Part shown: positions 24,639 through 64,000 of the stretch, piece after piece | Numbering within the stretch: the stretch's first letter is position 1 | How the letters are laid out: the number at the start of each line of letters is the position of its first letter | From: Apostichopus japonicus | Lineage: Eukaryota; Echinodermata; Holothuroidea; Aspidochirotida; Stichopodidae | NCBI RefSeq assembly: GCF_037975245.1 | Contig: NC_092575.1 | Coordinates: 17,139,810 to 17,203,809, forward strand | Direction of reading: 5' to 3' | DNA: 64,000 bases | The notes under the pieces: generated by a model | What the model was told of the DNA's origin: nothing | What the model saw: the letters and a program-made list of their open reading frames with translations, nothing else | Database searches by the model: none | Program-made: the position numbers and the translations under genes

Positions 24639-25693
24639 GTTTGTAAATTGTGTCACTTTTATTTTAATAACGTTTGTTCTACAGAAGACCCATACGTTAG
24701 TTCCGTGGGGGTTGTTGGCATGTTGGCACGTTGGCAAAGACATGTCTTCTGCCCCCCCCCCCCCATATAAGTAGACATATACAATTTTGCTGAAAATATG
24801 TGGTGTTTTACTCAGTCTTCTTCCAAATAACTTGGATATATAGCTGCTAAACATTTTCAATTGAAGATGACGTACACACACACTTTAACGTGCACACACA
24901 TACACGCACAGGCTAACCTTTATACCTTTTACTATAGTTTATATCTATATAGGTATATAGTATATATCTTTCTATGTTTTGTTTACTTTTTGCTATTGTT
25001 CTCGGGTTAAACTCTCGTAAACAACAGCAGTTGTTAAGTGCAAACATATGGCGCTACAACCAAACCTAATTTTGTACTGTATTGCCTAACTGTACTGTCT
25101 GGCCAGATTACCTGTCGCGACAAAACGGTAAGAAACTGCGATGTGCTGGTACACTGTATGCAGTGACACAGTGCTCTGCTTTATATATTTTGCTAGACAT
25201 TTTGTCAACAAAACTCATGAAAGAGAGTATAGCTGTTATTGTTACAGCAACGGGTGCTTGATGATCAGAAACTGTAATTTATCTCTTTCATCTCATATCC
25301 TGACACAAGCCGAGAGATTGGCTTCGGTCAGCTTGCGAGTCTATAAGCCTCCATGGCTTCTTTCGCGAGTTCCTGCTTGCGGGAAGATCACAAATACATA
25401 CATACATACATACAAGCTGGGCTTAAGCGAAATTTACAGTTGCCGTATCATTATCTAACAGAAAAGATAAAAGGATATTAACTGATTTAGTTATGTATGA
25501 TTATTTGTATTCTTCCGTATTTCAACTTCTAAAATCGGTATAAAAGCCTTTAAATCTGATCACACTACTTTCAGATAAAATCAATGTATACGTGTATTCC
25601 ATGCAATTGTTAATACTATGCATAACAGAGGATATTTTCCTAACAGAGACAAGTTTATGAAACGATGGTTTCCTGCAATCTACTGTGACAACA

Positions 25694-25739
<46 letters not shown>

Positions 25740-28161
25740 CATAGCTTTAATATTTCTTGCGTTGTACATTTGTTAATTCTCCACTGAAGTTACTATTGAA
25801 ATATTGCCACAAATGACAGGCCAAATTCAGTTCGTTAGTGGTTAAAATTAGGAAAATGATACAACCAAAAGAGGTTACGTGAAGGTAGAAATCAGTGGTG
25901 GGAGCTGGTTTTGGAAGGTGAGAGGGGATATCATACTTTTACCGACTGATTAAATTGTGGTATGAACCTTTAAAGGGCCAGAGGCGAATCCAGGTTTTTT
26001 TTTTATTATAAAGGAGTAAACGTGGATGAAGCCGATTGCCATCATAGCATGTAAATCCAGCCAATGGCAAGCTTATTCAGGCATCCTCTCAACTGCTTCC
26101 CAATTCTTTCCATCTTTCTTTATTTCTTTGGGGTTTTGGTTCTGCCATTGCCATGATTTTTATTCGTCTATAACAATTTTTATGTTCATTAGTTTCATCT
26201 CCCCACTACCAGGGGTAGCTCACATGGAGTAGGCCGAATTCATCGATCCTCCTATGCAAATCAGCTTTATGCTAAAATGTCATTAGAAGCATTAGAACAC
26301 TGGAAGCAACTGGAAAGGGAAACAAACACAAATCTTTATAGGTAAGTTCCTAAAATTAATTCAAAATTAAATAAGACTGTTAGCAAACTGCTTATCCACT
26401 AGAGAGCCTGTGTAAGAGAATGTGTAAAAGAAAGTTGGCCTGACGTTTCGCTCCTAGCAGGATCTTCTTCAAAAGCTAAATGACAAGTATCAGTAACAGA
26501 AGGTACAAAAACACGACAGTTTTTTCTTGGGTCTGTCTTCTACTATAAATTAGTAAAATGAGAAGCATTTACACGTTGTTTCTTGTATGACAAGATATAT
26601 ACTTTATATGTTTCCGTCTCATACACGTGCAGAGAAAGACGTGAATCTTCGATCATTGGTGGAAATTGATAAATTGATGCATATATGTTATTGGTATGGT
26701 ATTGAAAGGAAATCAAAATGTCACGTGACATTCATTTATTCGCAAATTTGCAGAACACCCGTTAAGAAACAATTTTTAAACATTTGATAAGTAGTTCTCT
26801 TTTTCTTATATATAGACAAACAGGAATGATAGTCATCGACAAACCGCCATTTAAGGAGCTGGAGGCAATGAAAGCCAACAATAAGGCTTTAGGAGTGGAG
26901 TGCGAGATCTTGAGTCCGGAGATGGTCCAAGACAGATATCCAGGACTCGTGAAGATACCCAAAAATCATAAAGCACTTTTGGAGACAAATGCTGGATTTC
27001 TTAGAGCTGACAAAGCTCTGGAATGTCTAAGGGTATACTGAAACTCATTTACATATTAATGGTTCTTTACCGAATAATTTAGGGATTGCATCTGCAAGTT
27101 GGCAGCAACTCAGAGTTTTTATGAATTTTGTTATCATAAAAAATGATTGGCAATTGCAATGTATTTTTTTACAAGAATTGCTATATATATGTTGGTTTGT
27201 GCTGGTGCCGATCCCCACGCTAAATAATCACAGGAAACGATGTAATCTGCTTCTTTTTTTGGGGGGGGGGGTACTTTTTTGAAAGAGTGTAATTTATTCT
27301 ACAACTTCCCCACACAATATACGATATTCCAGTAATACCATCAATACAAGTAACAAACAATAATAATGAATATATCGCACTATATACTTCTTCTTTACCT
27401 TGATATTGAGATTTTGACCATTTTGAATAGCATTTCCTATGCAATACCACATGAATGCAAAACCACATGCATGAATTATGCAATAAGTACACATTACGTA
27501 ACGGTACAAGAAACAATTAACGGTTCATATGATATATATGTTAGAGGGCTTTCATCTCCGAGAATTGTTTAAAATTTGTGTGAAATTTTCATAACATAAT
27601 GTCACTGGTTGAGATTGAATGATATAAACTCTATGCCATTCTGGTTTTCATCTTGTTATAATAACATTTAAGTGCTTCGATTTAAATAACTGTTAGCCTC
27701 TGGCTGATTGCACTGTGCTATTGTTATTAACAAAGCATATAAATTATGTGCTACCCTCTATATAGATGCAGATCAAGAAGTTTGGTGGACAAATAAATGA
27801 CTCGGAGAAGGTAGAAAATATCTTGCCTGGATCAGTTGTAACTGTAAGAACTGAGAAGGGAACTTACAAGACCAAATCTCTAATCATTACTCCTGGTCCA
27901 TGGATATGTAAACTCATGAAACCACTGGGTTTGAATCTTCCCATACGGGTAATTAAATCTGTATTCAGTCTGTAACTTGCGCTATCTGTAATATGTACAT
28001 AAAACAAATGCATGTATAGTTACTTGATGATGGGATATATACTTACCAGTATGATCATAGACAAAGTCATAATGGGCCATTTGTTTACTTTTCCATATCT
28101 CGTAACTTATACTGATCACTGCTGTTACTGTTATTACTAAGATCAATACAACAATATCCCT

Positions 28162-28215
<54 letters not shown>

Positions 28216-28438
28216 GTTGGCGTCTATCTTGGCGCAGAGTGCTCTATGTCCATTGGACAGAGCGGAATATATGTTGATACTAGATGAGACTAGTGGAACA
28301 CTAGTAGTTGTAACTCACAGTAGTTGTAATTCACGCGTTATAGCGATCTTCAGACAACTCTGAAGTTGTCTGAAGATCGCTATAACGCGTGAAACTCCGA
28401 GTTACAACTACTAGTGTTCCACTAGTCTCATCTAGTAT

Positions 28439-28496
<58 letters not shown>

Positions 28497-31400
28497 TTTT
28501 GACAAGCTGAATTACTTTTGTGGTCCAAAGATATCATTGAAACACAATTCAGAGAGATTAGTGAACAAAGTAATATTTCTTCCAAGTCAAAACATGGAAC
28601 ACGTTAATGTGTGCACAGAGGTGTAGCAATGGGGATGTTCAGACGGCTCATTGAACCAGGGGTCCACACGTCCAGGGGTCAGGCGCGGCGGAACGGGAAA
28701 ATTATTGGGGGGGGGGGGCTAATGTGTGGAGACTATCTAAGCGGAGCGCCATCATCGTTTGGCGCGGATCGTACAATAAAATTTTGGGTTTGAGTGTTTT
28801 ATGCTGCGAATACCTAGCCCTAAAATATGGGTATCAAGCCTGCAATTTCTCAGATTGCACGTAAAAATCTGTAAAAACATTGTAATATTCCTTCCAAGTC
28901 AAAACATGGAACACGTTAATGTGTGCACAGAGGTGTAGCAATGGGGATGTTCAGACGTTTCATTGAAACAGGGGTCCAAACGTCCAGGGGTCCACACGTC
29001 CAGGGGTCCCAAGTGTTAATTTCAACATTTGGACTCCTCGGATCCACTTCTGCCAGTCTGGTGAGATAGCCAGACAGAAATTTGTAGCTTTTATATTAAT
29101 AGCTTTGTGACAACTTCATGCTGTTTAGATTCAATAAGGATGAAGGTCCCCAGCTTTCACTTGTGAACCGGGGTCCTTGAAACCCTATAGTTAAGCAAAT
29201 GTGTCTCTGCATGTATGTCATACATGTTACAAAAGTAGTGGTGAATGGTTGCTTGTTGTCAAACCGAACTACTTTTCGCATTATACTTATTCTGATAAAG
29301 GTCAAGCGACAAGCATTCACATTCTAGTTTGTATATTTGTTTGCTTTCTTAACATATGACGTTTTGACGAAAAAAGCTCTGAAAACTTCTTAAATTATTG
29401 AAAGTCCATTCCCATAATGTTCCCAAGAATATTAACATGAACTTTCGAAAGGAGCTATTTATATGTAAAAGATGTTACATATGATCGTATTACTTAGTTT
29501 AACATTGAAATATCCAAAGGTTTTCATGTATTTTTTTTCTTCTTTCGCTTCGGAATGATTTCAGGTTGTAAAAATCACTCTGTGTTATTGGACAGAGAAA
29601 ATACCAGGCCAGTCTAAGAAATATCCAACATTCTGTGATTTCGGCATTGATAAACCAGATGGTTTTACAGAACCAGTCTATGTTTTCGGATTCCCGAGTA
29701 TAGAATATAACGGACTGAGAAAGGTAAGGAATTTTGAAAAATGCGGAAGTGAGAAAGTAATCTCAGAACAAGAAAGAAGGAGAAGGGGAATTGTCACATA
29801 TGTCATATAATTTTCCCGGGCCTTTTAATATACACACTTAAATAAGCCACAATTAACCATAAAGATTAGCATATAGGCTATGGCAGAAATAATTATGATG
29901 AGCATGGTTGTCACAAATAGCTAAGAAATATGTTGCTCCGTTTGGGAGATACCCATATATGGTTTTAAAATGCATGTCTGTAAGCGGTCATTTTTTGGGG
30001 GGGTAAATATGTGTTGCCATAGTGCCCCGAAGATCTGAAACGTTTAATTCTCTTTATTTTTATGTTTTCGAGGGTATAGAAGAAGAATGCTTACATTGTT
30101 GACGCTGAAACGAAATCAAGAAAAAACAAATACAATAAAATGAAGTAAACAGGTTGCTCGATGACGTCATATTTAGACTTGATCAAGTCTTCGGCCTTGT
30201 GTGCAGGAAAATTAAACCTGTGATATCTTCCAAAGGGAATAAGATATTTCTTACATGCTTGGGAAAGTTATGAATGGGACAATTATCTCTTTTACAAAGA
30301 GCAATAACGATGATCATGAGGTTTTGTACCCTTTTAATGACCAAAGTATTGCTGTTTCTAAATCCTGATAGAAGTTTGCACGGAAAGACACCTTTTTTGG
30401 ATGACCGTATGACAAGTCGTCAACTATCCGCACGTCAGACCAAGGCCGTGTAAATTTTCAGACTAACTTAAGGCATATTTCATCACTGGATTCCAAGCTT
30501 CTTTACACACCAGTATATATTGTTCCATACGCTGCGTGTTTGTTTTATTTTGCATTGTGAAGAAATATGCTTTAAAATTGACTCAAAAATAAATAAACGG
30601 AATGATTTGCCTGTTCATCGGCTGTATAACTTTTTAATAAGTGTCAGTATAGTCTTTAGAATGTTTTAGAAGGTTACTATATAACAATTGCAACAGGATG
30701 TGAGATTTTTGTGCTCAGTTTTATTTGGGTTCCTTGATGGAAACTTTACGTCCATACAGCTCTATCTTTTCCTACTAAAATAAGCTATGTGCTGCACTTA
30801 AGAAGATCGTCGCAGTTTGAAACATCTGCAGTCCTTTTATACAAACTCTGCAAATTTTTATACACTTACCTAAACAGATGAGGGGGGGGGGGTGGCTTTG
30901 TACGTTAATTTGTATATTTTGCCTATTTTGTATATTTTGTTCTCTACTCAATTTTATGCAGATCAGTGTTCACCATGGTACGGGGGTCGATCCAGATCAA
31001 AGAGACAGCTTCATCGCAGATGAGACTAAAGATGTTCAATTTTTGTTGAATTACATGAAGAGACGATTCCCCGAATACGGAGATAATCCAGACCCTGCTA
31101 TCATTGAGAAGTGTATGTATTCTGTGAGTACTTCATGTTTCACTGCCTATACACCGTGGGAGCAAAATTATACAAAAAGGAAGGAAATATCGCATACCAT
31201 ATCGATATATCGATGTATCAATATATCGAAAACAGTTGTATTTGTGTACTTTAACACGAGGCAAATATATATGATACGTTACCCGTGCACCCTGTCCATT
31301 CATTCTACCTATACACCAGTGACGTAGGAAGGTACTTTTGACTGGGGGGCTGAAGATCGATGTCCGGCCTGGGGGAGGGGTCTAAGGGGAGGGGGACACC

Positions 31401-34400
31401 CCCTCCCCTTTGGAATTTTTTGCATTTCCAGGTGGCCTCAGATGCAATTTGGTGAAATATAGCACACTTCAACACCCACTCCGTTTTGTAAACTTAATTT
31501 TGTATTTTCACCTGGCCTTAGATGCAATTTGGTGCTCCAAATGAGATTTTTTTTTTCTCATTTGGAAATGAAAAAGGGGTTTTCTGACTTGCGAAGCGGG
31601 GGGGGGGGCGGAATGATACTTCCGCCCCTCCACATTTTTCACTGGGGGGCTGGCGCCCCCCAGCCCCCCGGTTCCTACGCCCTTGCTATACACAGCTCAA
31701 AAGTGTCTGTTTATGAAACTAAAATAGAGAGGAGATGTTGGCGAATCTTCTAACTTTACTAACTTTTTATACAATTTCCTTAATCTTGTAGTCAGGAACA
31801 TTTGATTTGGTGTTTGATTCAAAGTCTGTTCTCCTTGTTAACACAATGCAAAACGTTTGAAAATGCTTTTTGGTTTGCTTGCAGCTATATATAAGCTAGA
31901 TATATGTTTTATATGCACAGTCACGGTACATGACAGAATTTCAATCGCAATTGGTCACGATAATAACTTCATCATGTTTACATATTTTAGAACAGCTCGC
32001 AGAAAGTTATGCTTCATATGAATTTTTGTTTTTATAATATCTAGTAAACACGAAGGTCGGGTGAATAACGTTAGATATGAAGAGCAAAATAATTTTGACA
32101 TTATATAATTACATATAATTTTAGTACAGGGATTACGTTATCTTAATTAAATCATCTAATATATTAGAGAGAAAGAGGAAAAACCTCAAGTTTTATTGTG
32201 TCATTCTAGTCTAGTTCACAATTGTTAACAGGCGCGTAGCCAAGTGGAGGGGGGGCGAAGGGGGCAGCCGCCCCCCCCCTTCAGCATTTTTTTTTAATGT
32301 TTTTGTGATATCGCTAGTATTTTCAAAGAGAAAATGCTAAGATGCAACTTACAAGGCCTGGGAAGTGCCTTTTCCAGCGATCTGGGAGGCATTTTCAGCC
32401 AAAATTTTCTTTTATGCTTCGCGCCAAAATGGTGGCGCTACGCTTATATAGTTTGCAATGCCGAATCTACAGTTTCGCCCCTCCCTGGCTACGCGCCTGA
32501 TTGTTAATAAACTATGTACGTACCAATCCCACTATGGCGTTCTTAAGGACAATCAAATGACGAATATGTCATGTTTGTCTTTCTTGAATCAAGAGATAAA
32601 CATAGATAAAATCATCATTTTGCTGTGTCATTCTATATAGTAGCTATAGAGTTAACAATTGCTAGCGAAGCGGCTTATTCAATGTGCGTTTTTGGTTCCT
32701 TGCTTTAGCAAAAGGAACCTATGTAGTCAAGTTTGCGTGTGTGTGTGTGTGTGTGTGCGTGTGTGTGTCTGTGTGTGCATCTGTGACACTTGCTTGGGTA
32801 CACTGTAACTCAACAAGGGAAAGTTGGACTTAACTCAAACTTGATATATAGATCCGCCATAGTGAGAAGGTGTGCCCTATTGTTTTTGGTGCCTGTGAAG
32901 GTCACCAAAGGTCAGTTAGAGGCCAAAAACCCAAAATATTAAAACTGCAATAACTCCCAGTGCCAATGTGCGACATGGTTGATATTTTGGAACAAGTTGT
33001 GAACTGGTAAGGGGAATATTTTGAAACTTAACGGTCATGTGATCCAAGGTCACCAAAGGTCAATTAATGTTAAAAAACAACTATTTTTGTGATAACTTGA
33101 GGACAAAATGTCCGTTAGGGTTGGGATTTGCTTCAATGTATTCCAATTGTCGACCCGCATCTGGGTGACCCATGACCTCAATTTGACCTCTGGTGACCTT
33201 TACGTGTTTTGGGGGATTCTTAAAGTTTTGATGTTATTTTCAGATGTCAAAGGTACCTTCTGATCATAAATGTCAATAGGTTAACCCCGTGTGACCTTTA
33301 TGTGCGAAGTTATATGGGGTCAAAGTTTTTCGGTCAGAGTTAGGATGGTTGTACAGACTTGTCGTATTGTTTTTAAGAATCAGGAGATCAAACTACATCT
33401 GAAACCAAGGTCCAAAGGTCAAAGGTCACATTAGAAAAAAATGTGCTTAGTTTGGTAGGAAACGAGCAAAAATGAAAATGTTTGGTTTTGATGCTAGATT
33501 TGGATACCAAAGGTACCTTCCGATCAAAAATATCAATGGGATGACACCCGTGTGACCTTCGTGTGCGAAGTTATACGAGGTCAAAGTTAATTTTCAGACA
33601 TTTAATGCAATAACTCCCCGTTCAAAGGTGTGACATGGTTGATATTTTTGGACAAGTTGCAAATGGAATAGGGGAATATTTTCAAACGTAACGGTCATGT
33701 GATCCGAGGTCACCAAAGGTCAATTAATGTTAAAAAACTTGTATTTTGGGAGGAGAAAATGGGCAAAGAAAAATATGTTTAAATTTGTATAATTTGATGC
33801 TCTATTTAGGTCTCACCAATCAAAAATGTCAATAAGTTGACCCAAGTTGACCTTTGTATGTTAAGTTACATGAGGTCAAAGTTAATTTTCAGACATTTAG
33901 TGTAATAACTCCCAGTGCCAAGGTGTTACACGGTTGATATTTTGGGACAAGTTGCAAATGGTATAGGGGAATATTTTCAAACTTACCGGTCATGTGATCC
34001 AAGGTCACCAAAGGTCAATTAATGATAAAAAAGTAGTATTTTTGCGATAACTTGAGAACAAATTGTCCGTTAGGGTTGGGAGTTGCTTCAATGTAATCCA
34101 ATTGTCGACCCGCATCTGGGAGACCCTTGACCTCAATTTGACCTCTGGTGACCTTTTCGTGTTTTGTGCATTTTTACAGTTTCGATGCTATTTTCAGATG
34201 TTAAAGATACCTTTTGATCATAAATGTCAATGGGTTGACCCCGTGTGACCTTCGTGTGCGAAGTTATACGAGGTCAAAGTTAATTTTCAGACATTTAATG
34301 CAATAACTCCCAGTGCCAAGGTGTCACACGGTTGATATTTTTGGAGTAGTTGCAAATGGAATAGGGGAATATTTTCAAACTTAACGGTTATTTGATCCAA

Positions 34401-37400
34401 GGTCACCAAAGGTCAAACAATGATAAAAAAGTAGTATTTTTGCGATAACTTGAGAATATTGTCAGTTAGGGTTGGGAGTTGCTTCAATGTAATCCAATTG
34501 TCGACCCGCATCTGGGTGACCCTTGACCTCAATTTGACCTCTGGTGACCTTTTCGTGTTTTGGGGATTTTTACAGTCTCGATGCTATTTTCAGATGTTAA
34601 AGGTACCTTCTGATCATAAATGTCAATAGGTTGACCCCCGGATGAGCTTTGTGTGTGAAGTTATACGAGGTCAAAGTTAATTTTCAGACATTTAATGCAA
34701 TAACTCCCAGTGCCAAGGTGTGACAAGGTTGTTTTTTGGACAAGTTGTGAATGGTATAGGGGAATATTTTCAAACTTAGCGGTCATCTGATCCAAGGTCA
34801 CCAAAGGTCAGCTAATGTTAAAAAAACTAGTATTTTGGGGGGAGAAAATGGGCAAAGAAAAAATGTTTGAATTTTTACAGTTTTGATGCTCTATTTAGGT
34901 CTCACCAATCAAAAATGTCAATTGGTTGACCAACGGGTGACCTTCGTGTGTGAAGTTATGTATACAAGTTCAAAGTTAATTTTTAGACATTTAATGCAAT
35001 TAAATCCCAATGCCAAGGTGTGACACGGTTGATATTTTCGGACAAGTTGTGAATGGGGTGGTGGAACTTTTTCAAAGTTAAAGGTCATGTCATCTGAGGT
35101 CATCAATGTTATCATATCTGTTGACCCGCTTGTAGGTTACCTTATATTTCTTACATTTTCGACGCCATATTTAGATCTCAAAAGTGCCTTTTGATCAAAA
35201 ATCCGATCACATTTTGTGATCACAAAAGTGTTGGCTATAGTGTTGGTTACTTTATGGGTACATGAAGGACCACAATTAATTGGACTATTTGAGCCCAATC
35301 TTGCTTGATAATATTATGTGTATTGTCATATACCCAAAGCAAGGAACCACGGTGCCCTTGGGCTCTTGTTTATTTAAACAAAGTGTACATTATTTTTTAA
35401 TAAAAATATCACATTTTCAACAAATTTAGCAAGTTGCGTGCAATTTACAAGAAGAGAGGGCAATCCATGCATGGAGTTACAGATCTCATCTCCCTCCATG
35501 ACAGAAGTGATTGTTGAGTTATACTTCTGAATGCATCTGCTTGCTATCTTTAAAATATCAGATTTGTCCCATGATGCTCTATATATCTTGTGGTTTAATG
35601 ACTTTTTCCATACTGATATGCAAGTATTGGCTAAAATAACAGTTTCTGTGGGTATTTGATCTTTGACACATGGTCAGTGACCAGTACACACCAAGTTTTG
35701 CACGTGATCGGACTCATCGTGTAGGAGTTCGTGACACACTTTTTCGCACATTTTAGGTCTTGCCCATGCAGTGCAGGCAGACTGCCCTATTTTCAGGTCG
35801 TAATGTTATGGCACAGTCCGGCCTGCGTATTTTTTTCCAGGGCGAACGTGGGCATCGGCCAATCAAATCCCTGGATTCCAAACATGTGACGCTTTTCAAA
35901 AAACATGTTCTGAATCTTTTTTCCTAGTTTTGACCCCAGATTATGAACGAGAATCCTTCATTTTCATAAGAACTGGATCCCTAACCCACTTTCTAAACCC
36001 TAGTTCTGATTTCAAACGAATTTGTAAATTCCTGAAAAACCTGAGACCCTTATCCGTCCTGGGAATAAAAATCAGGCGTCCGGCCTTGATCATCATATGT
36101 TAAGAAATCGACATTTGTCTATAGCTATGGAACGTTTGGTTTTCCGTAGGTTTCGTTTAACTCCAAGCAAAGACTCTGCTCTTTTTTAAAGGCTGTTGAT
36201 TGTCGCAACGAAAGCTTTTTCATCTGAGTGATGTCCGCCCCAAAGAGTTCAATTTTTTTTTCCTTATTACTAGCTTGGTTTGAACTATTTTGTGAAGTTG
36301 TTAGATGATGGAGATAAACACACCTAGATCCGTGCCTATAACGGCAAGGGGAATATGTGTCTACGGGCAAGTATAATTTGAATGTACAAATTGGGACGAA
36401 AATTGCTTGATTTTTATATTAATTATGAGAGTCTCTACTAGATTATATCGAGATCGAATTAACATAATTTTTTATTAGTTCTAACGGAACAATATCTCCA
36501 TGAGGTCAATAAAATGAATTATTTAAAATGTCGGCCTACACTGTAACCGTATAGTCTGTACTGATGGAATTTTAAGAATGTGCTAGAATTGCAAATACTA
36601 TATATACCGGTGTAGTATAAACAAAAATGTGACGTAGCCTTTAATATAATCTTTGTTATAGGTTTATTTAATGTCAGTGTATACAACGAAATACAATTAT
36701 TACATCCTATAATCTACAGAGAGAAAAGAAAAGGAATTTAGATAAAAAGATATAGCAAAGAATAGATTTCAATTTTGAAATACGAGATTCCCCATTTACG
36801 TGTTATAGGTTAGAGTTAAACCATATAGCTATAGTTGATTGGCTTAACGACTTATTTTACACACATAAGCATACTGGGATTCACAAGGAACATCATTCCA
36901 AGAACCATTATCATGATTTTTGTCAGAATTCCAAATGACTACGCAATCTTCTCCTCCCGCATCATTTGGTTCAGCTTGGTCCCAAAATGTGAATTTTGGA
37001 GAAAAACCTTTCACGTCGACAAAGTTCCCTTCGTTTTTTCTGTCGTTGTAGCCGAGCCACACGGGCTGCAATAAAAAGAGAGTATATGTTTGTTTTAGAT
37101 CGCACCTAGTATTTAGAAAGTCTCTTTTTCAGCGTCCGGAAGTTTGGTTTGCAGGCTCTTCATACAGGCCAAGGTGCCTGTATCAAAAACGACACACACA
37201 GACATTCCCACAACACAACACACACGACATACAGCCCCCCACCCCCACCCACCCCTAGTGGTTTTTCCAATTTCATTGGTATCACTAAGTGTCGCGGAAT
37301 GTGTTGTGCCTCGTAGAAAGTATACAGACTGACCATATTTGACAAGCAATTATGACCGACTGGATTAAATATGTTGGTCCACGGCAACGTCATGGGATGT

Positions 37401-49565: not shown

Positions 49566-50247
49566 GCCTTACTGTACTGTCTGGCCGGATTGCCTGTCGC
49601 GACAAAACGTAATAAACTGCGATGTGCTGGTACACGCTATGCAGTGACACAATATACTCTGCTTTATATATTTTACTATACAGTTTGTCAACAAAACTCA
49701 TTTGAAAGAGAGTATAGCTGTTAGTGTTACAGCAACGGGTTCTTGATGATCATAAACTGTAAATTATCTCTTTCTCCTCATATCCTGACACAAGCTGGGC
49801 TTTAACGAAATTTACAGTTGCCGTATCATAATCTAACGGAAAAAGATGAAAGGTGTAGTTAGCGTATTGTATTTAATTTGTTCATGGTGAATCTGCACTT
49901 TATGAATGTATAAGCGTAGCTTTTTTCAGATTTTCTATGTTTTTTTTCTTTCTTTGACATTGGTATTATCCATTATTGTAAATGTAATTGTAAAAAAGAA
50001 AAAAAAGTGAAATAAACGAAACGAAACGAAATAACTGATTAAGTTATGACCAATACTTGTATTTTTTCCGTATTTCAACTGCTAAAGTCAGTACAAAAGC
50101 TTTTAAATCTGTAACACTCCTTTCAGATAAAATCAATGTATACGTGTATTCAATGCCTAATTGTTAATACTATGCATAACAGAGGATATTTTACTTACAT
50201 AGACAAGTTTATGAAACGATGGTTTCCTGCAATCTACTGCTACAACA

Positions 50248-50285
<38 letters not shown>

Positions 50286-50518
50286 TAGCTTTAATATTTC
50301 TTGCGTTGTACATTTGTTAATTCTCCATTGAAGTTACTATTGAAATATTGCCACAAATGACAGGCCGAATTCAGTTCGTTAGTGGTTAAAATTGGGGAAA
50401 TGATACAACCAAATGAAGTACGTGAAGGTAGAAATCAGTGATGGGAGCTGGTTTTGGCAGGTGGGAGGGGGATATCATACTTTTGCCGACTAATTTAAAT
50501 TGTGGTATGAACCTTTAA

Positions 50519-50853
50519 AGGGAGTGAAGACTCGCGCACAAAGAAACGTCTGATGCCGATAATCTGGCCTAGTTTCGAATGAGGTGTAACGGAAGTGTTA
50601 GACGCCACTATCGATCACAGAAAATACACACACAGCTTGCTACCGTCCGTAGTTAGACACTAATGTACAGTCAATACATCCAGCTACGGTCAATACCCAC
50701 AACACAGTGTACATAGCGGCGATGGACATCTCAGGTCTAGATAAAAGATAACAAGGTATCACGTTTCATTACTGTCTGCATTTTGAAACGGCAACGGAAA
50801 TTTAACTTTTTTTCAGAAGGCGGCACGTGGTTTGGGGCGAGTCTTCAATGCCT
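50519..50853 (+). mobile_element. TTAA-targeting MITE (only in second version)
   Basis: ttaa at 50515-50518 and 50854-50857 bracket inverted ends agggagtgaagactcgc and gcgagtcttcaatgcct. The first version at 25972 has one uninterrupted cctttaaagggccag. The TTAA target fits piggyBac- or Kolobok-type elements. 335 bases, non-coding. Confidence 0.88.
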
Positions 50854-51178
50854 TTAAAGTGCCAGAGGCGAATCCAGGTTTTTGCTTTATTAAGTAGTAC
50901 GTGGATAAAGCCGATTGCCATCATGGCATGTAAATCCAACCAATGGCAAGCTTCTTCAGGCATCCTCTCAACTGCTTCCCAATTCTTTCCATCTTTCTTT
51001 CTTTCTTTGGGGTTTTGGTTTTGCCATTGCAATGGCGGCCAATATAACAGAAAATACACTTGATGTCACTGTTAAAGGTCAGTGGAAGTGTAGACTTGAC
51101 TTTGAAGATTCTGATTCCTTCTGATTAGTATTGAAAATCCAACCACCAGACTGACTTTTAGTCGATGCAGTGTGAAAA

Positions 51179-53216: not shown

Positions 53217-54094
53217 CGAACCCAAGCTATCGTTTTTAATCTGGGGGGGGGGGGGGGGCTTGTCTATACCAGACAACAAGTCTTCCTGGAGATCCTCGCT
53301 TACAGCAGCCCTGGAGTACAGGTTCGAAAAGAACGACCTAAATACCTCAGATGACTAGTGACCTGACTTAGCGTGTGTTGTTCACAGAATTGGCGTTGTG
53401 TTTATGAAGGGTGCACAATCATACAAAATCTCCCAATGAGTCGGTATTCACATCTGGTCGGTTTTCCCTCAAGTTACCCTTTATATAGTTGACTCAATGT
53501 AATCAGTCTTACATGACACTCGTAACTCCCATATAATAACGGGCTTTGCGACAGTGTCTATCCACGGTCGATCACACCTCAAAGTTCCCCAATCAGTCCT
53601 AAGTGGCTACCTGAGCCAAAGGGACACAATTAGAATTCCAGCCATAACATATAGTCAGGGTGCTAGCCCAGTTTCATTTTCACGTTTGAGGACGGAAGGT
53701 TTGATGGTCCCGATCAGTAAAGGGCACAGGGGTCTGGGGAATGAATATATATGAAATTTCCTTTTTTTCCAGGCGGCCATCTTGGATTCTGGCCGCCATA
53801 TTGGAAGTGGTTGGCCCAAGCAACATGCTATGACCATCATCTGTTTCAGTGAGCGCGGAAACACCTGAATTGACCCCTCATTTGTTCATCTCCGATTTTT
53901 AAAGCCAGATATATGACATTTCCTTTTTTTCTGGCGGCCATCTTGGATTTTGGCCGCCATCTGGAAAATCGGAGCCGATCAAGTGGGTTCCACGGATCAA
54001 ATAAATAGATAGGTCGAAAATAAACTCCATGCCAAATTTGGTACTTTTGTCGGGCCGGTAACGTTAATCCTGAAAATTGTTGCTAAGCCACCTG
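53217..54094. repeat. Right part of replacement block, with tandem ggcggccatcttgga repeat
   Basis: A G-run at 53243-53259, then two copies of a phrase with tttcctttttttc, ggcggccatcttggatt, tggccgccat at about 53755-53805 and 53920-53965. No gene seen. Confidence 0.55.
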
Positions 54095-54282
54095 ACTAGA
54101 GAAAGACTTGAATCTTCGATCATTGGTGGAAATTGATAAATTGATGCATATATGTTAGTGGTATATGGTAATGAAAGGAAACCAAAATGTCACTTGACAT
54201 TCCTTTATTCGCAAATTTGCAGAACACCCGTCAAGAAACAATTGTTAAACATTTAATATTCTTTTTCTCTTTTCATTTATAG

Positions 54283-54499
54283 ACAAACAGGAATGATAGT
54301 CATCGACAAACCGCCATTTAAGGAGCTGGAGGCAATGAAAGCAAACAATAAGGCTTTAGGGGTGGAGTGCGAGATCTTGAGTCCGGAGGTGGTCCAAGAC
54401 AGATATCCAGGCCTCGTGAAGATATCCAGAAATCATAAAGCACTTTTGGAGACAAATGCTGGATTTCTAAGAGCTGACAAAGCTCTGGAATGTCTAAGG
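54283..54499 (+). pseudogene. PIPOX: PIPOX-like copy 3, exon 3
   Basis: QTGMIVIDKPPF to ADKALECLR; intact splice sites (cattatag... atttatag/, gtatac). Confidence 0.85.
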
Positions 54500-55225
54500 G
54501 TATACTGAAACTCATTTACATATTAATGGTTCTTTACCGAATAATTTAGGGATTGCATCTGCAAGTTGGCAGCAACTCAGAGTTTTTATGAATTTTGTTA
54601 TCATAAAAAATGATTGGCAATTGCAATGTATTTGTTTACAAGAATTGCTATATATATGTTGGTTTGTGCTGGTGCCGATCCCCACGCTAAATAATCACAG
54701 AAAACGATGTAATCTGCTTTTTTTAAGGGGGGTAACTATTTTGAAAGAGTTTAATTTATTCTACAACTTCCCCACACAATATACGATATTCCAGTAATAC
54801 CAAAAATAAAAGTAACAAACAATAATAATGAATATATCGCACTATATACTTCTTCTTTACCTTTTTATTGAGATTTTGACCATTTTGAATAGCATTTCCT
54901 ATGCAATACCACATGAATGCAAAACCACATGAATTATGCAATAAGTACACATTACGTAACGCGGTACAAGAAACAATTAATGGTTGATATGATATATATG
55001 TTAGAGGGCTTTCATCTCCGAGAATTGTTTAAAATTTGTGTGAAATTTTCATAACATAATGTCACTGGTTGAGATTGAATGATATAAACTCTATGCCATT
55101 CTGGTTTTCATCTTGTTATAATAACATTTAAGTGCTTCGATTTAAATAACTGTTAGCCTCTGGCTGATTGCACTGTGCTATTGTTATTAACAAAGCATAT
55201 ACATTATGTGCTACCCTCTATATAG

Positions 55226-55408
55226 ATGCAGATCAAGAAGTTTGGTGGACAAATAAATGACTCGGAGAAGGTAGAAAATATCTTGCCTGGATCAGTTGTA
55301 ACTGTAACAACTGAGAAGGGAACTTACAAGACCAAATCTCTAATCATTACTCCTGGTCCATGGATATGTAAACTCATGAAACCACTTGGTTTGAATCTTC
55401 CCATACGG
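55226..55408 (+). pseudogene. PIPOX: PIPOX-like copy 3, exon 4
   Basis: MQIKKFGGQIND to LPIR; acceptor ctatatag, donor gtaatt. Confidence 0.85.
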
Positions 55409-56176
55409 GTAATTAAATCTGTATTCAGTTTGTAACTTGCGCTATCTGTAATATGTACATAAAACAAATGCATGTATAGTTACTTGATGATGGGATATAT
55501 ACTTACCAGTATGATCATAGACAAAGTCATAATTGGCCATTTGTTTACTTTTCCATATCTCGTAACTTATACTGATCACTGCTGTTACTGTGATTACTAC
55601 AATGGAGTTATGTGCTTCTTTTCACAAGGTTGGTTCTTTTCAAAGTTTGAACAAATAGTAAATTCAAGATCAAAACAACAATTTTGACAAACTAAATAAC
55701 TTTTGGGGTCTAAAGATATCATTGAAACACAATTCAGAGAGATCATTGACAAAAAGCAATATTCTTTCCAAGTCAAAACATGGAACACGTTAATGTGTGC
55801 ACAGAGGTGTAGCAATGGGGATGTTCAGACGGTTCATTGAATCAGGGGTCCAAACGTCCAGGGGTCCAAACGTCCAGGGGTCCCAACGTCCAGGGGTCCC
55901 AAGGGTTTAATTTCAACATTTAGACTCCTCGGATCCACTTCTGCCAGTCTGGTGAGATAGCCAGACAGAAATTTGTAGCTTTTACATTAATAGCTTTTGT
56001 GCCAAGTTCACGCTGTTTAGATTTAATAAGGATGAAGGTCCCCAGCTTTTCACTTGTGAACCGGGGTCCTTGAAACCCTATTGTTACGCTAATGTGTCTC
56101 TGCATGTGTGTCATACATGTTACAAAAGTAGTGGTGAATGGTTGCTTGTTGTCAAACCGACCACTTTTCGCATTAT

Positions 56177-56464
56177 ACGTGGAGTGTTATACGCGTGGAG
56201 TGTTATACGCATGGAGCGTGGAGTGTTAGCTCAGTGGTTAACGCTGGTGCCTTTCAATCATAAGGTCCCCGGTTCGAGTCACTCCCAGATTAATGTATGT
56301 CGTCCAGTTACAGAGTTGTTGACAATTAACAATTCATAATCATGGACGTTAAATATGAATGTAAGAGACTGACTTCGGTCAGCTTGCGGCTTTGATAAGC
56401 CAATGAGGCTTCTTCGCGAGTTCCTGCTTGCAGGAGGATCTAATATATATATACATACATACTT
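56177..56464 (+). repeat. Full-length SINE family A with stuttered 5' end (only in second version)
   Basis: The SINE proper runs 56214-56464 (gttagctcagtggttaacgc, ggttcgagtcactcc, cgcgagttcctgcttgcagg, (cata)n tail). It is preceded by three short repeats of cgtggagtgttatacg. The first version at about 29285 reads straight through (cattatacttattctgat). Best-preserved A and B boxes of the family in this window. Confidence 0.9.
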
Positions 56465-56734
56465 ATTATGATAAGGGTCTAGCATGCACATTCTAGTTTG
56501 TTTTATTTGTTTGCTTTCTTAACATTTGACGTTTTGACGAAAAAAGCTCTGAAAACTTCTTAAATTATTGAAATACCATTCCCATAATGTTCCCAAGAAT
56601 ATTAACATGAACTTTCGAAAGAAGCTATTTATATGTTAAAGATGTTAAATATGATCGTATTACTTAGCCTAACATTGAAATATCCAAAGGTTTTCATGTA
56701 TTTTTTTTCTTCTTTCGCTTCGGAATGTTTTCAG

Positions 56735-56893
56735 GTTGTAAAAATCACTCTGTGTTATTGGACAGAGAAAATACCAGGCCAGTCTAAGAAATATCCAACA
56801 TTCTGTGATTTCGGCATTGATAAACCAGATGGTTTTACAGAACCAGTCTATGTTTTTGGATTCCCGAGTATAGAATATAACGGACTGAGAAAG
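56735..56893 (+). pseudogene. PIPOX: PIPOX-like copy 3, exon 5
   Basis: VVKITLCYWTEK to YNGLRK; protein identical to copy 2 in this exon. Confidence 0.85.
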
Positions 56894-58128
56894 GTAAGGA
56901 ATTTTGCAAAATGCGGAAGTGAGAAAATAATGTCAGAACAAGAAAGAATAAGGAGAAGGGGAATTGTCACATATGTCATATAATTTTCCCGGGCCCTTTT
57001 AATATACACACTTCAATAAGCCAGAATTAACCATAAAGATTAGCATATAGGCTATGGCAGAAATAACTATGATGAGCATGGTTGTCACAAATAGCTAAGA
57101 AAAATGTTGATCCGTTTGGGAGATACCCTATCGTTTAAAAGTCATGTCTGTAAGCGGTCATTTTTTTGTGTGTGGTAAATATGTGTTGCCATAGTGCCCC
57201 GAAGATCTGAAACTTTTAATTCTCTTTATTTTTATGTTTTCGAGGGTATAGAAGAAGAATGCTTACATTGTTGACGCTGAAACGAAATCAAGAAGAAACA
57301 AATACAATAAAATGAAGTAAACAGGTTGCTCGATGACGTCATATTTAGACTTGATCAAGTCTTCGGCCTTGTGTGCAGGAAAATTAAACCTGTGATATCT
57401 TCCAAAGGGAATAATATATTTCTTACATGCTTGGGAAAGTTATGAATGGGACAATTATCTCTTTTACATAGAGCAATAACGATGATCATGAGGTTTTGTA
57501 CCATTTTAATTACCAAAGTATTGCTGTTTCAAAATTCTGATAGAAGTTTGCACGGAAAGACTACACCTTTTTTTGGATGACCGTATGACAAGCCGTCAAC
57601 TATCCGCACATCAGACCATTAGACTAACTTCAGCTAAATTTCATCACTGGATTCCAAGCTTCTTTAGTCACCAGTATATATTGTTCCATACGCTGCGTGT
57701 TTGTTTTATTTTGCATTGTGAAGAAATATGCTTTAAAATTGACTCAAAAATAAATAAACGGAATGATTTGCCTGTGAATCGGCTGTATAACTTTTTAATA
57801 AGTGTCAGTATAGTCTTTAGAATGTTTTAGAAGGTTACTATATAACAATTGCCACAGGATGTGAGATTTTTGTGCTCAGTTTTATTTGGGTTCCTTGATG
57901 GAAACTTTACGTCCATACAGCTCTATCTTTTCCTACTAAAATAAGCTATGTGCTGCACTTAAGAAAGATCGTCGCAGTTTGAAACATCTGCAGTCCTTTT
58001 ATACAAACTCTGCAAATTTTTATACACTTACCTAAACAGATGAGGGGGAGGGGGGGGGGTGGCTTTGTACGTTAATTTGTATATTTTGCCTATTTTGTAT
58101 ATTTTGTTCTCTACTCAATTTTATGCAG

Positions 58129-58290
58129 ATCAGTGTTCACCATGGTACGGGGGTCGATCCAGATCAAAGAGACAGCTTCATCGCAGATGAGACTAAAGAT
58201 GTTCAATTTTTGTTGAATTACATGAAGAGACGATTCCCCGAATACGGATATAATCCAGACCCTGCTATCATTGAGAAGTGTATGTATTCT
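58129..58290 (+). pseudogene. PIPOX: PIPOX-like copy 3, exon 6
   Basis: ISVHHGTGVDPDQRD to IEKCMYS; donor gtgagt. Confidence 0.85.
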
Positions 58291-58476
58291 GTGAGTACTT
58301 CATGTTTCACTGCCTATACACAGTGGGAGCAAAATTATATAAAGAGGAATGATATATCGCATACCATATCGATATAGCAATATATCGAAAACAGTTGTTT
58401 TTGTGTACTTTCAACACGAGGCAAATATATATGATACGTTACCCGTGCACCCTGTCCATTCATTCTACCTATACAC

Positions 58477-58856
58477 CAGTGGCGTAGGAAGGTACTTTTG
58501 TGTGGGGGGGGGCTGAAGATCGATGGCCGGCCTGGGGGAGGGGTCTAAAAAATTCCAAAGGGGAGGGGGACACCCCCTCCCCTTTGGAATTTTTTGCATT
58601 TCCAGGTGGCCTCAGATGCAATTTGGTACAATATAGCACACTTCAACACCCACTCCGTTTTGTAAACTTAATTTTGTATTTTCACCTGGCCTTAGATGCA
58701 ATTTGGTGCTCCAAATGAGATTTTTTTCTCATTTGGAAATGAAAAAGGGGTTTTCTGACTTGCGAAGCGGGGGGGGGGGGCGGAATGATACTTCCGCCTC
58801 TCCACATTTTTCACTGGGGGGCTGGCGCCCCCAGCCCCCCGGTTCCTACGCCCTTA
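58477..58856. mobile_element. Short hAT-like element (CAGTGGCGTAGGAA family), second version
   Basis: Counterpart of 31317-31685 with the same ctatacac duplication (58469-58476, 58857-58864). Confidence 0.9.
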
Positions 58857-59398
58857 CTATACACAGCTCAAAAGTGTCTGTTTAGCAACTAAAATAGAGA
58901 GGAGATGTTGGCGAGTCTTCTAACTTTACTAACTTTTTATACAATTTCCTTAATCTAGTAGTCAGGAACATTTGATTTGGTGTTTGATTCAAAGTCTGTT
59001 TTCCTTGTTAACACAATGCAAAACGTTTGAAAATGCTTTTTGGTTTGCTTGCAGCTATATATAAGCTAGATATATGTTTTATATGCACAGTCACGGTACA
59101 TGACAGAATTTCAATCGCAATTGGTCACGATAATAACTTCATCATGTTTACATATTTTAGAACAGCTCGCAGAAAGTTATGCTTCATATGAATTTTTGTT
59201 TTTATAATATCTAGTAAACACGAAGGTCGGGTGAATAACGTTAGATATGAAGAGCAAAATAATTTTGACATTATATAATTACATATAATTTTAGTACAGG
59301 GATTACGTTATCTTAATTAAATCATCTAATATATTAGAGAGAAAGAGGAAAAACCTCAAGTTTTATTGTGTCATTCTAGTCTAGTTCACAATTGTTAA

Positions 59399-59669
59399 CA
59401 GGCGCGTAGCCAAGTGGAGGGGGGGCGAAGGGGGCAGCCGCCCCCCCCCTTCAGCATTTTTTTTTAATGTTTTTGTGATATCGCTAGTATTTTCAAAGAG
59501 AAAATGCTAAGATGCAACTTACAAGGCCTGGGAAGTGCCTTTTCCAGCGATCTGGGAGGCATTTTCAGCCAAAATTTTCTTTTATGCTTCGCGCCAAAAT
59601 GGTGGCGCTACGCTTATATAGTTTGCAATGCCGAATCTACAGTTTCGCCCCTCCCTGGCTACGCGCCTG
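59399..59669. mobile_element. Short hAT-like element (GGCGCGTAGCCA family), second version
   Basis: Counterpart of 32229-32499, with the same attgttaa duplication; appears identical by eye. Confidence 0.9.
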
Positions 59670-59869
59670 ATTGTTAATAAACTATGTACGTACCAATCCC
59701 ACTATGGCGTTCTTAAGGACAATCAAATGACGAATATGTCATGTTTGTCTTTCTTGAATCAAGAGATAAACATAGATAAAATCATCATTTTGCTGTGTCA
59801 TTCTATATAGTAGCTATAGAGTTAACAATTGCTAGCGAAGCGGCTTATTCAATGTGCGTTTTTGGTTCC

Positions 59870-62540
59870 TTGCTTTAGCAAAAGGAACCTATGTAGTCAA
59901 GTTTGCGTGTGTGTGTGTGTGTGCGTGTGTGTGTGTGTGTGTCTGTGTGTGCATCTGTGACACTTGCTTGGGTACACTGTAACTCAACAAGGGAAAGTTG
60001 GACTTAACTCAAACTTGATATATAGATCCGCCATAGTGAGAAGGTGTGCCCTATTGTTTTTGGTGCCTGTGAAGGTCACCAAAGGTCAGTTAGAGGCCAA
60101 AAACCCAAAATATTAAAACTGCAATAACTCCCAGTGCCAATGTGCGACATGGTTGATATTTTGGAACAAGTTGTGAACTGGTAAGGGGAATATTTTGAAA
60201 CTTAACGGTCATGTGATCCAAGGTCACCAAAGGTCAATTAATGTTAAAAAACAACTATTTTTGTGATAACTTGAGGACAAAATGTCCGTTAGGGTTGGGA
60301 TTTGCTTCAATGTATTCCAATTGTCGACCCGCATCTGGGTGACCCATGACCTCAATTTGACCTCTGGTGACCTTTACGTGTTTTGGGGGATTTTTAAAGT
60401 TTTGATGTTATTTTCAGATGTCAAAGGTACCTTCTGATCATAAATGTCAATAGGTTAACCCCGTGTGACCTTTATGTGCGAAGTTATATGGGGTCAAAGT
60501 TTTTCGGTCAGAGTTAGGATGGTTGTACAGACTTGTCGTATTGTTTTTAAGAATCAGGAGATCAAACTACATCTGAAACCAAGGTCAAAAGGTCAAAGGT
60601 CACATTAGAAAAAAATGTGCTTAGTTTGGTAGGAAACGAGCAAAAATGAAAATGTTTGGTTTTGATGCTAGATTTGGATACCAAAGGTACCTTCCGATCA
60701 AAAATATCAATGGGATGACACCCGTGTGACCTTCGTGTGCGAAGTTATACGAGGTCAAAGTTAATTTTCAGACATTTAATGCAATAACTCCCCGTTCAAA
60801 GGTGTGACATGGTTGATATTTTTGGACAAGTTGCAAATGGTATAGGGGAATATTTTCAAACGTAACGGTCATGTGATCCGAGGTCACCAAAGGTCAATTA
60901 ATGTTAAAAAACTTGTATTTTGGGAGGAGAAAATGGGCAAAGAAAAATATGTTTAAATTTGTATAATTTGATGCTCTATTTAGGTCTCACCAATCAAAAA
61001 TGTCAATAAGTTGACCCAAGTTGACCTTTGTATGTTAAGTTACATGAGGTCAAAGTTAATTTTCAGACATTTAGTGTAATAACTCCCAGTGCCAAGGTGT
61101 TACACGGTTGATATTTTGGGACAAGTTGCAAATGGTATAGGGGAATATTTTCAAACTTACCGGTCATGTGATCCAAGGTCACCAAAGGTCAATTAATGAT
61201 AAAAAACTAGTATTTTTGCGATAACTTGAGAACAAATTGTCCGTTAGGGTTGGGAGTTGCTTCAATGTAATCCAATTGTCGACCCGCATCTGGGATACCC
61301 TTGACCTCAATTTGACCTCTGGTGACCTTTTCGTGTTTTGTGCATTTTTACAGTTTCGATGCTATTTTCAGATGTTAAAGATACCTTTTGATCATAAATG
61401 TCAATGGGTTGACCCCGTGTGACCTTCGTGTGCGAAGTTATACGAGGTCAAAGTTAATTTTCAGACATTTAATGCAATAACTCCCAGTGCCAAGGTGTCA
61501 CACGGTTGATATTTTTGGAGTAGTTGCAAATGGAAGAGGGGAATATTTTCAAACTTAACGGTCATTTGATCCAAGGTCACCAAAGGTCAAACAATGATAA
61601 AAAGGTAGTATTTTTGCGATAACTTGAGAATATTGTCAGTTAGGGTTGGGAGTTGCTTCAATGTAATCCAATTGTCGACCCGCATCTGGGTGACCCTTGA
61701 CCTCAATTTGACCTCTGGTGACCTTTTCGTGTTTTGGGGATTTTTACAGTCTCGATGCTATTTTCAGATGTTAAAGGTACCTTCTGATCATAAATGTCAA
61801 TAGGTTGACCCCCGGATGAGCTTTGTGTGTGAAGTTATACGAGGTCAAAGTTAATTTTCAGACATTTAATGCAATAACTCCCAGTGCCAAGGTGTGACAA
61901 GGTTGTTTTTTTGGACAAGTTTTGAATGGTATAGGGGAATATTTTCAAACTTAGCGGTCATCTGATCCAAGGTCACCAAAGGTCAGCTAATGTTAAAAAA
62001 ACTAGTATTTTGGGGGGAGAAAATGGGCAAAGAAAAATGTTTGAATTTTTACAGTTTTGATGCTCTATTTAGGTCTCACCAATCAAAAATGTCAATTGGT
62101 TGACCAACGGGTGACCTTCGTGTGTGAAGTTATGTATACAAGTTCAAAGTTAATTTTTAGACATTTAATGCAATTAAATCCCAATGCCAAGGTGTGACAC
62201 GGTTGATATTTTCGGACAAGTTGTGAATGGGGTGGTGGAACTTTTTCAAAGTTAAAGGTCATGTCATCTGAGGTCACCAATGTTATCATATCTGTTGACC
62301 CGCTTGTAGGTTACCTTATATTTCTTACATTTTCGACGCCATATTTAGATCTCAAAAGTGCCTTTTGATCAAAAATCCGATCACATTTTGTGATCACAAA
62401 AGTGTTGGCTATAGTGTTGGTTACTTTATGGGTACATATAGGACCACAATTAATTGGACTATTTGAGCCCAATCTTGCTTGATAATATAATGTGTATTGT
62501 CATATACCCAAAGCAACGAACCACGGTGCCATTGGGCTCT
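59870..62540 (+). repeat. Array of degenerate AGGTCA-rich units, second version
   Basis: Collinear with 32690-35360; differs by a longer (tg)n run (59907-59942) and scattered single bases. Confidence 0.85.
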
Positions 62541-62904
62541 TGTTTATTTAAACAAAGTGTACATTATTTTTTAATAAAAACATCACATTTTCACCAAATT
62601 CAGCAAGTTGCGTGCAATTTACAAGAAAAGAAAGCAATCCATGCATGGAGTTACAGATCTCATCTTCCTCCATGACAGAAGTGATTGTTGAGTTATACTT
62701 CTGAATGCATCTGCTTGCTATCTTTCAAATATCAAATTTGTCCCATGATTCTCTATATATCTTGTGGTTTAATGACTTTTTCCGATACTGATATGCAAGT
62801 ATTGGCTAAAATAACAGTTTCTGTGGGTATTTTGACATTTGACACATGGTCAGTGACCAGTACACACCAAGTTTTGCACGTGATCGGACTCATCGTGTAG
62901 GAGT

Positions 62905-63110
62905 GTCACGAGTATGCTTGACGCAAGCCTAACGACTATCGTGCAGCTGGATAAATTTACTGATGAATATTCATTTGTTGTCTGTTTTGCTCACGAAGTT
63001 CAAATTAGTAGCATACGACATTCTAGTATATGCTTTGTTTAATTCACTGATTGCTCGACGGGCATCAATGGAATTTGTGCAAGTCTTTGTTAAGATTAAT
63101 TTGCAAGGAG
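62905..63110. mobile_element. About 0.2-kb insertion (only in second version)
   Basis: aggagt stands on both sides (62899-62904 and about 63106-63111), while the first version near 35720-35727 has it once (gtgtaggagttcgtgac). The inserted sequence shows no clear terminal repeats or tRNA-like head, so its type is unknown. Confidence 0.75.
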
Positions 63111-63111
63111 T

Positions 63112-64000
63112 TCGTGACACACTTTTTAGCACATTTTAGGTCTTGCCCATGCAGTGCAGGCAGACTGCCCTATCTTCAGGTCGTAATGTTATGGCACAGT
63201 CCGGCCTGCGTATTTTTTTTTTCCAGGACGAACGTGGGCATCGGCCAATCAAATCCCTGGATTCCAAACATGTGACGCTTTTCAAAAAACATGTTCTGAA
63301 TCTTTTTTCCTAGTTTTGACCCCAGATTATGAACGAGAATCCTTCATTTTCATAAGAACTGGATCCCTAACCCACTTTCTAAACCCTAGTTCTGATTTCA
63401 AACGAATTTGTAAATTCCTGAAAACCTGAGACCTTTATCCGTCCTGGGAATAAAAATCAGGCGCCCGGCCTTGGTCATCATATGTTAAGAGATAGACATT
63501 TGTCGATAGCTATGGAACGTTTGGTTTTCCGTAGGTTTCGTTTAACTCCAAGCAAGGACTGCTCTTTTTTAAAGGCTGTTGATTGTCGCAACGAAAGCTT
63601 TTTCATCTGAGTGATGTCCGCCCCAAAGAGTTCAATTTTTTCCTTATTACTAGCTTGGTTTGAACTATTTTGTGAAGTTGTTAGATGATGGAGATAAACA
63701 CACCTAGATCCGTGCCTATAACGTCAAGGGGAATATGTTTCTACGGGCAAGTATAATTTGAATGTACAAATCGGGACGAAAATTGCTTGATTTTTATATT
63801 AATTATGAGAGTCTCTACTAATTTATATCGAGATCGAATTAACATATTTTTTTATTAGTTCTTACGGAACAATATCTCCATGAGGTCAATAAAATGAATT
63901 ATTTAAAATGTCGGCCTACACTGTAACCGTGTAATCTGTACTGATGGCATTTTAAGAATGTGCTAGAATTGCAAATACTATATATACCGGTGTAGTATAA
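63112..64000. other. Right flank, collinear with 35727-36620, no gene seen
   Basis: Matches the stretch just right of the AGGTCA array in the first version and ends about 240 bases before where a lectin exon 3 would be expected. Confidence 0.6.

Follow-up and report, generated by a model that had tools for sequence, protein, structure and literature searches.

Are two long, near-identical segments that stand in the same direction on one contig a true duplication, or two alleles of a heterozygous locus joined during assembly? The question is raised by a stretch of 64,000 nucleotides of the sea cucumber Apostichopus japonicus (C15:17,139,810-17,203,809, hereafter the window, whose coordinates are used for array positions throughout), which carries a gene that we call PIPOX, for L-pipecolate/sarcosine oxidase, with an antisense C-type lectin gene in its intron 6. 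An initial annotation, made from the letters alone, had noted a large direct duplication in the same order and direction and had offered both explanations. Self-BLAST of the window confirmed the repeat as a collinear same-strand match between 25,080-36,620 and 49,562-64,000, with long blocks at an E value of 0. Copy 1 begins ~440 bases past exon 1, within PIPOX intron 1, and the right end of the repeat is the window edge, 36,620 pairing with 64,000. Copy 2 is truncated only at the window end: in the 200 kb that we fetched around the window it runs on to ~80 kb, and the homology between the two units concerned, U2 and U3, extends to 49,406 and 77,946, respectively. We conclude that the repeat is most likely a genuine chromosome segment, belonging to a series of four or more duplicated blocks, and that an assembly artefact is very unlikely because two haplotypes do not explain four near-equidistant units. 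Overall, we regard as quite probable a real tandem array in which PIPOX with its nested lectin was duplicated, conversion patches the units and selection keeps the lectin exons distinct.

Number and borders of the units

A search of the genome (671,581,487 bases in 35 contigs) with a 1.2-kb probe returned four close tandem places on C15, with 40 of 1,280 candidates scored; the other matches (37 of 41) were short and 74-87% identical, which is the pattern of a dispersed repeat. The units of the array are U2 (24.5-49.56 kb), U3 (49.56 to ~80 kb), U4 (97.4-129.5 kb) and U5 (146.0-175.5 kb), accompanied by mutually homologous spacers at 80-97, 129.5-146 and 175.5-192.3 kb. The repeating unit measures 25-49 kb, and U4 and U5 are equal at ~48 kb each. 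There are no N bases in the window and no N stretches inside the array, the single N stretch of the 264 kb examined falling outside it. Neither of two marks of a false heterotype duplication was therefore seen: no gap separates the copies, and the four close units exceed the number of haplotypes. U2-U5 form the three or more direct copies with reproducible borders that define a tandem array.

The borders and the copy number of the units are matters of direct observation. At the U2/U3 junction (49,562-49,564), the left side is a 3′ flank common to U2-U5 and the right side is PIPOX intron 1, with up to ~3 bases possibly shared. Homology of the U2 3′ flank with the flanks of U3, U4 and U5 persists up to 49,564, where U2 passes into intron 1 and the others into the spacer. 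U4 and U5 have a spacer/exon-2 junction in common that is identical over 32 bases to its left and 42 to its right (74 in total). The unit borders are thus of two kinds, in intron 1 (U3) and in the middle of exon 2 (U4 and U5). A bridging repeat that could have misled the assembler at 49,562 was sought and not found within the window. The underlying assembly, probably the one built with hifiasm from 64-fold HiFi reads of 14.7 kb mean length (671.60 Mb, 34 scaffolds, 23 chromosomes; Sun et al. 2023, PMC10344927), was likewise counted in favour of a real array.

The first spacer holds, on its minus strand, pieces of an ODAD1-like gene; Pfam ODAD1_CC was matched in three of the four pieces tested, one below the curated cut-off. 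We take ODAD1 to be an outer dynein arm docking protein.

Divergence between units and exchange of tracts

The divergence between U2 and U3 is a mosaic that ranges from 0.35% to ~8%. In BLAST blocks, with gaps uncounted, mismatches amounted to 18/235, 32/504 and 11/189 at 25.1-26.15 kb (~6-8%), 40/1516 (2.6%) at 26.6-28.1 kb, 95/6486 (1.5%) at 29.3-35.7 kb and 20/901 at 35.7-36.6 kb. The left flank is thus more diverged, as had been noticed; its identities were taken from BLAST blocks, and MAFFT window values there (e.g., 30%) are alignment noise around inserts. Two further features had escaped the initial annotation. Five insertions or deletions of 190-339 bases separate the two copies, and the segment 26,155-26,630 of copy 1, which includes exon 2, is swapped in copy 2 for 51,035-54,097, which contains a decayed long interspersed nuclear element (LINE) on the minus strand (Pfam RVT_1 above the cut-off, zf-RVT below it).

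The divergence reaches its minimum at 31,832-35,263, with 11 substitutions in 3,431 aligned bases compared with 109 in 3,839 in the rest of the 29.3-36.6 kb block. The log-likelihood gain for this tract was 41.7, whereas the maximum in 100 shuffles was 9.7. U2 and U3 differ here by 0.35% and the other five pairs by 1.53-1.76%, and the tract is probably a recent conversion tract between U2 and U3. Given the mosaic of 0.35% to ~8%, the claim that the duplication is young has to be qualified. The tract takes in the U2 copy of an AGGTCA-rich array in PIPOX intron 6 (period of ~398 bases; 32,899-35,102 in U2, 60,073-62,276 in U3, present also in U4 and U5). The motif, presumably similar to a nuclear-receptor half-site, occurs 93 times in the window, 34 times in the first array and 35 times in the second (69 of 93 together). 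Compared in register between units, the arrays are 98-99.7% identical, as opposed to 81-91% among the repeats within one array.

Over 14,028 gap-free sites, in four blocks chosen for alignment in all of U2-U5, the six pair distances were 3.01, 3.30, 3.04, 3.49, 3.32 and 3.22%, the last being that of U4 and U5. The three possible pairings of units were backed by 70, 47 and 43 of the 160 informative sites, and the favored pairing switched 45 times along the sequence, compared with a mean of 104 and a minimum of 85 in 1,000 shuffles. Because the conflicting pairings are clustered in this way, the aligned sites show that units exchanged tracts, with relationships changing from tract to tract. Both signs of such exchange, clustered site patterns and a tract of outlying low divergence, were found.

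These data allowed us to weigh other explanations of the repeat. A contig into which both alleles of a heterozygous locus had been joined would account for the likeness of U2 and U3, and their 0.35% tract could reflect shared ancestry; heterozygosity in another animal of this species was put at 1.59% by k-mers and ~2% by simulation (PMC5638244). Yet the units number four and not two, the six pairs lie 3.0-3.5% apart on the shared blocks, with no close pair and at about twice the reported heterozygosity, the array is free of gaps, and the order of the units, as far as we can reason, misfits two concatenated haplotypes. On the strength of the four units, their near-equal distances and the common U4/U5 junction, we rejected the join as the main explanation and consider it highly improbable. 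The same observations, together with the gap-free array, support the other option of the initial annotation, a true tandem duplication. A narrower doubt is that the array is real but includes one allele placed in tandem, for example U5 beside U4 (~48 kb each), given that these two have the same 5′ junction, a similar length and some close tracts (up to 98.9% over 1.1 kb). Their distance of 3.22% is, however, not below that of the other pairs and rises to ~10% in stretches, and the PIPOX breaks in exons 3, 4 and 6 of U4 are absent from U5, which has one in exon 5; an allele in this position is improbable. Finally, most of the 29-36 kb region is less than 4% diverged, as a single young tandem duplication of U2 with mutation noise for its uneven identity would have it; we give this hardly any credence, as the low-divergence tract lies far outside the 100 shuffles, the conflicting site patterns are clustered and the units number four. 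The question of an artefact appears settled as far as the assembly sequence allows.

The PIPOX host gene and its nested lectin

PIPOX is complete in two places. All eight exons of U1, an older PIPOX gene, lie on the plus strand at 7,451-17,631 (7,451-7,546, 9,265-9,414, 10,223-10,441, 11,678-11,857, 13,226-13,384, 14,631-14,786, 16,642-16,716 and 17,500-17,631), and no lectin exon was found inside this gene. U2, the only one of U2-U5 with a complete exon set, has its eight exons on the plus strand at 24,543-48,858 (24,543-24,638, 26,193-26,342, 26,814-27,032, 27,769-27,948, 29,565-29,723, 30,968-31,123, 47,793-47,867 and 48,727-48,858). The exons of both genes were placed by tblastn with window-derived exons, and their ends are approximate to a few bases. 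The spliced U2 protein of 390 amino acids matches Pfam DAO (PF01266; E value of 2.1e-53) and monomeric sarcosine oxidase 1zov (9.3e-56), and by these Pfam and PDB matches it carries a DAO domain with an N-terminal flavin adenine dinucleotide (FAD)-binding motif. A DAO-family gene close to monomeric sarcosine oxidase fits these data, as does the name PIPOX.

The other units hold only parts of this gene. In U3, exons 3-6 lie on the plus strand at 54,281-58,290 (54,281-54,499, 55,229-55,408, 56,735-56,893 and 58,135-58,290) and exons 7 and 8 past the window at 76.4 and 77.3 kb; exons 1 and 2 were not found. U4 has a partial exon 2, exons 3, 4 and 6, each frame-broken, exons 5, 7 and 8, plus an additional exon 7 at 114,772-114,849; U5 has a partial exon 2, exons 3, 4, 6, 7 and 8, and one break, in exon 5. 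Exon 1 is thus missing from U3-U5, as is exon 2 in whole or in part; in the array and the DNA flanking it, U1 and U2 gave the only matches to exon 1. We take exon 1 to encode the N-terminal nucleotide-binding GxGxxG stretch, and the FAD motif was accordingly not found at U3-U5. Because exon 1 is lacking, the repeat starting within intron 1, the U3 copy should not yield a normal enzyme by itself. As judged from these exon sets, no further complete PIPOX gene arises from the duplication. Of the new PIPOX-lectin unit that had been proposed, the lectin stood, with an open frame at 64.2-69.4 kb, while its PIPOX lacks exons 1 and 2.

U1 and U2 are old paralogues whose introns are almost without similarity beyond the exon edges. 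In the distances computed per exon, silent sites are almost the same in exons 1, 4 and 8 (7/97 synonymous differences), in contrast to 76/161 for exons 2, 3, 5, 6 and 7 (P of 1.8e-12, for exon groups picked after the values were seen); this looks like short-tract conversion. An inverted relic with PIPOX exon 7 twice and exon 8 lies about half a megabase from the array (C15:17,798,527-17,808,036, minus strand), and none of the lectin matches listed in the genome falls in it. Older PIPOX-like genes, with exons 38-68% identical, lie on C15 near 0.32-0.35 Mb and 7.13 Mb.

Each of U2-U5 contains one lectin gene, modelled with three coding exons. That of U2 lies on the minus strand at 36,844-40,790 (exon S, 40,665-40,790; exon B, 38,422-38,584; exon A, 36,844-37,065; model ends approximate; Pfam Lectin_C E value of 6.6e-12) and, as assembled, is frameshifted because a G-run in exon S is one G too long. 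The frame is open in U3 (170 amino acids, just past the window) and in U4 (169 amino acids), and in U5 it reaches a stop with an altered C-terminus. In the scan of U2-U4, Lectin_C scored above the curated cut-off in U2 exon A and in the U3 and U4 proteins. The EPN and WND motifs, which bear on the sugar choice of such lectins, are kept in all four genes, and the codon columns that vary among U2-U5 number 19 of 55 in exon B (including one gapped column) and 32 of 72 in exon A.

Differences in lectin exons and in the surrounding non-coding DNA were 60/502 and 155/4026 for U2-U3, 40/502 and 129/4015 for U2-U4, 40/498 and 152/4032 for U2-U5, 80/502 and 126/4063 for U3-U4, 61/501 and 142/4060 for U3-U5, and 38/498 and 110/4053 for U4-U5. 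Pooled lectin exons therefore diverge by 7.6-15.9% and non-coding DNA by 2.7-3.8%, a two- to fivefold excess in all six pairs (P of 3.6e-5 to 6.6e-27), the pairs being non-independent as they are drawn from four sequences. Nonsynonymous sites were raised over non-coding DNA in all six. That introns are as conserved as exons, as the initial annotation had it, holds for PIPOX, where U2 and U3 differ at 7/219, 2/180, 1/159 and 1/156 bases of exons 3-6 (11/714), and fails for the lectin. The "near-identical duplication" is thus better described as one in which the introns are alike and the nested lectin exons are not.

Related lectin exons are common in the genome, with at least 84 matches (150 of 192 candidates scored), and a dense cluster of them, 42-55% identical to the U4 lectin, occupies C1:10.50-10.94 Mb. 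At a lectin locus on C22 (L034, L039) the introns match those of the nested lectin too, at 73-91% in BLAST blocks, so that the segment may have moved between chromosomes; no PIPOX match was found on C22. Divergence of this locus from the array amounts to 11.6-12.2% in the non-coding part and to 17.8-20.3% in exons A and B, the two exons compared. By these distances it is an older relative. The C22 lectin was also considered as a recent donor of exons A and B, a role that its distance from all four units does not support.

Proposed history and comparison with known systems

In the history that we propose, a PIPOX gene with an antisense C-type lectin in intron 6 would have been duplicated along with its 3′ flank. 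The first joins, made without long homology (~3 bases are possibly shared at 49,562), would have set the two kinds of border, and unequal exchange between long repeats would later have multiplied the unit; this order of events is one that we infer. Since no normal enzyme could come from copies without exon 1, PIPOX would have decayed in U3-U5 as the nested lectin stayed open; U2 retains PIPOX and has, as assembled, a frameshifted lectin. Ectopic gene conversion, seen in the mosaic relationships, keeps patching the units together, and selection for different sugar-binding faces would keep the lectin exons distinct. The simplest reading of the contrast between exons and introns is that conversion homogenises introns and PIPOX remains and that selection removes many lectin exons once they have been converted, so protecting the lectin differences. 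The array lectins may act in immunity.

Several observations weigh against this combination of a real array, conversion and selection. The array was judged from the assembly sequence, and the near-equal distances come from selected blocks, outside which pairs are ~80 to 99% identical. The frameshift of the U2 lectin comes down to one homopolymer base and could be a sequence error. In PIPOX exons 3-6, the comparison of U2 with U3 gives 6 synonymous changes over 153.5 sites and 5 nonsynonymous ones over 560.5, which looks constrained and not dead; polarised on U1, the changes are 4 synonymous and 2 nonsynonymous in U2 and 1 and 1 in U3, with 1 and 2 unassignable. These rates do not show decay in U3 and point to constraint, or to U2 as a source of conversion, so that the case for loss of PIPOX in U3 is made solely by its missing exons. 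In the lectins, the ratio of nonsynonymous to synonymous rates (dN/dS) is 1.11-1.41 in all six pairs and dN significantly exceeds dS in none, and diversifying selection is not claimed from dN>dS alone. Synonymous sites are raised as well, at P<0.05 in every pair but U2-U5 (0.092), which is hard to obtain by amino-acid selection alone and suggests that the exons have a deeper history than the introns. Exon B differs between U2 and U4 at only 2 of 163 positions and exon S between U4 and U5 at none, so exchange extends to lectin exons too.

The lectin exons could also have diverged by import of pieces from other, more distant lectin genes, without selection having maintained or driven the differences. 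The synonymous excess over non-coding DNA and the many related exons in the genome speak for import. On the other hand, the closest outside locus among the matches listed, that on C22, lies too far away in exons A and B to be a recent donor, and no other donor appears among them. We therefore regard import as possible but on balance unlikely, and retain selection on the duplicated lectins as the preferred reading.

A bolder proposal, offered tentatively, is un-nesting by tandem duplication. One unit would keep the enzyme and have lost the lectin, and the others would be left with diversifying lectins and no enzyme; this reciprocal decay would settle the conflict that arises when a fast-evolving gene sits in an intron of a conserved one, with conversion erasing differences nearly everywhere but in the lectin exons. 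If reads and expression bear it out, the locus would let one examine, in a compact natural setting, how an immune-type gene that is nested and evolves fast gets free of its conserved host, and how a single unit of 25-49 kb is shared out between conversion and selection.

Elsewhere in the window, a U2 small nuclear RNA-like match (3,480-3,563, minus strand), two transfer RNA-like matches (10,724-10,797 and 11,221-11,295) and a 19-base minisatellite (3,912-4,233) are probably repeat-derived. An exon of a major-facilitator transporter lies at 218-469 on the minus strand (Pfam MFS_1, E value of 7.8e-10).

Among known systems, the lectin itself can be compared with CEL-I (PDB 4wqq), presumably of the sea cucumber Cucumaria echinata, which residues 28-169 of the U3 lectin match at an E value of 2.3e-19. 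The SpTransformer (Sp185/333) proteins of the purple sea urchin belong to a family other than the C-type lectins. Their clusters arose by duplications and deletions of regions with a short immune gene, and they resemble our locus in being duplicated echinoderm clusters in which exon changes diversify an immune gene; tandem immune gene arrays are thus already known, echinoderms included (PMC8634487). In our locus, by contrast, a metabolic gene holds the diversified gene in one of its introns, is copied together with it and decays. The array of snake small serum proteins likewise combines a gene array, reported accelerated evolution of its genes and an inactive copy broken by LINEs; these genes are unrelated, and the abstract mentions no nested-gene unit (PMC6609765). 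False heterotype duplications also give near-identical neighbouring copies in heterozygous species (PMC9516828), but the copies of the present array exceed two, lie at near-equal distances without a gap between them and include two that have a junction in common. By titles and abstract starts, the searches made of the open-access literature yielded no account of this locus. Set beside these systems, what is new here is the nested arrangement with apparently reciprocal loss.

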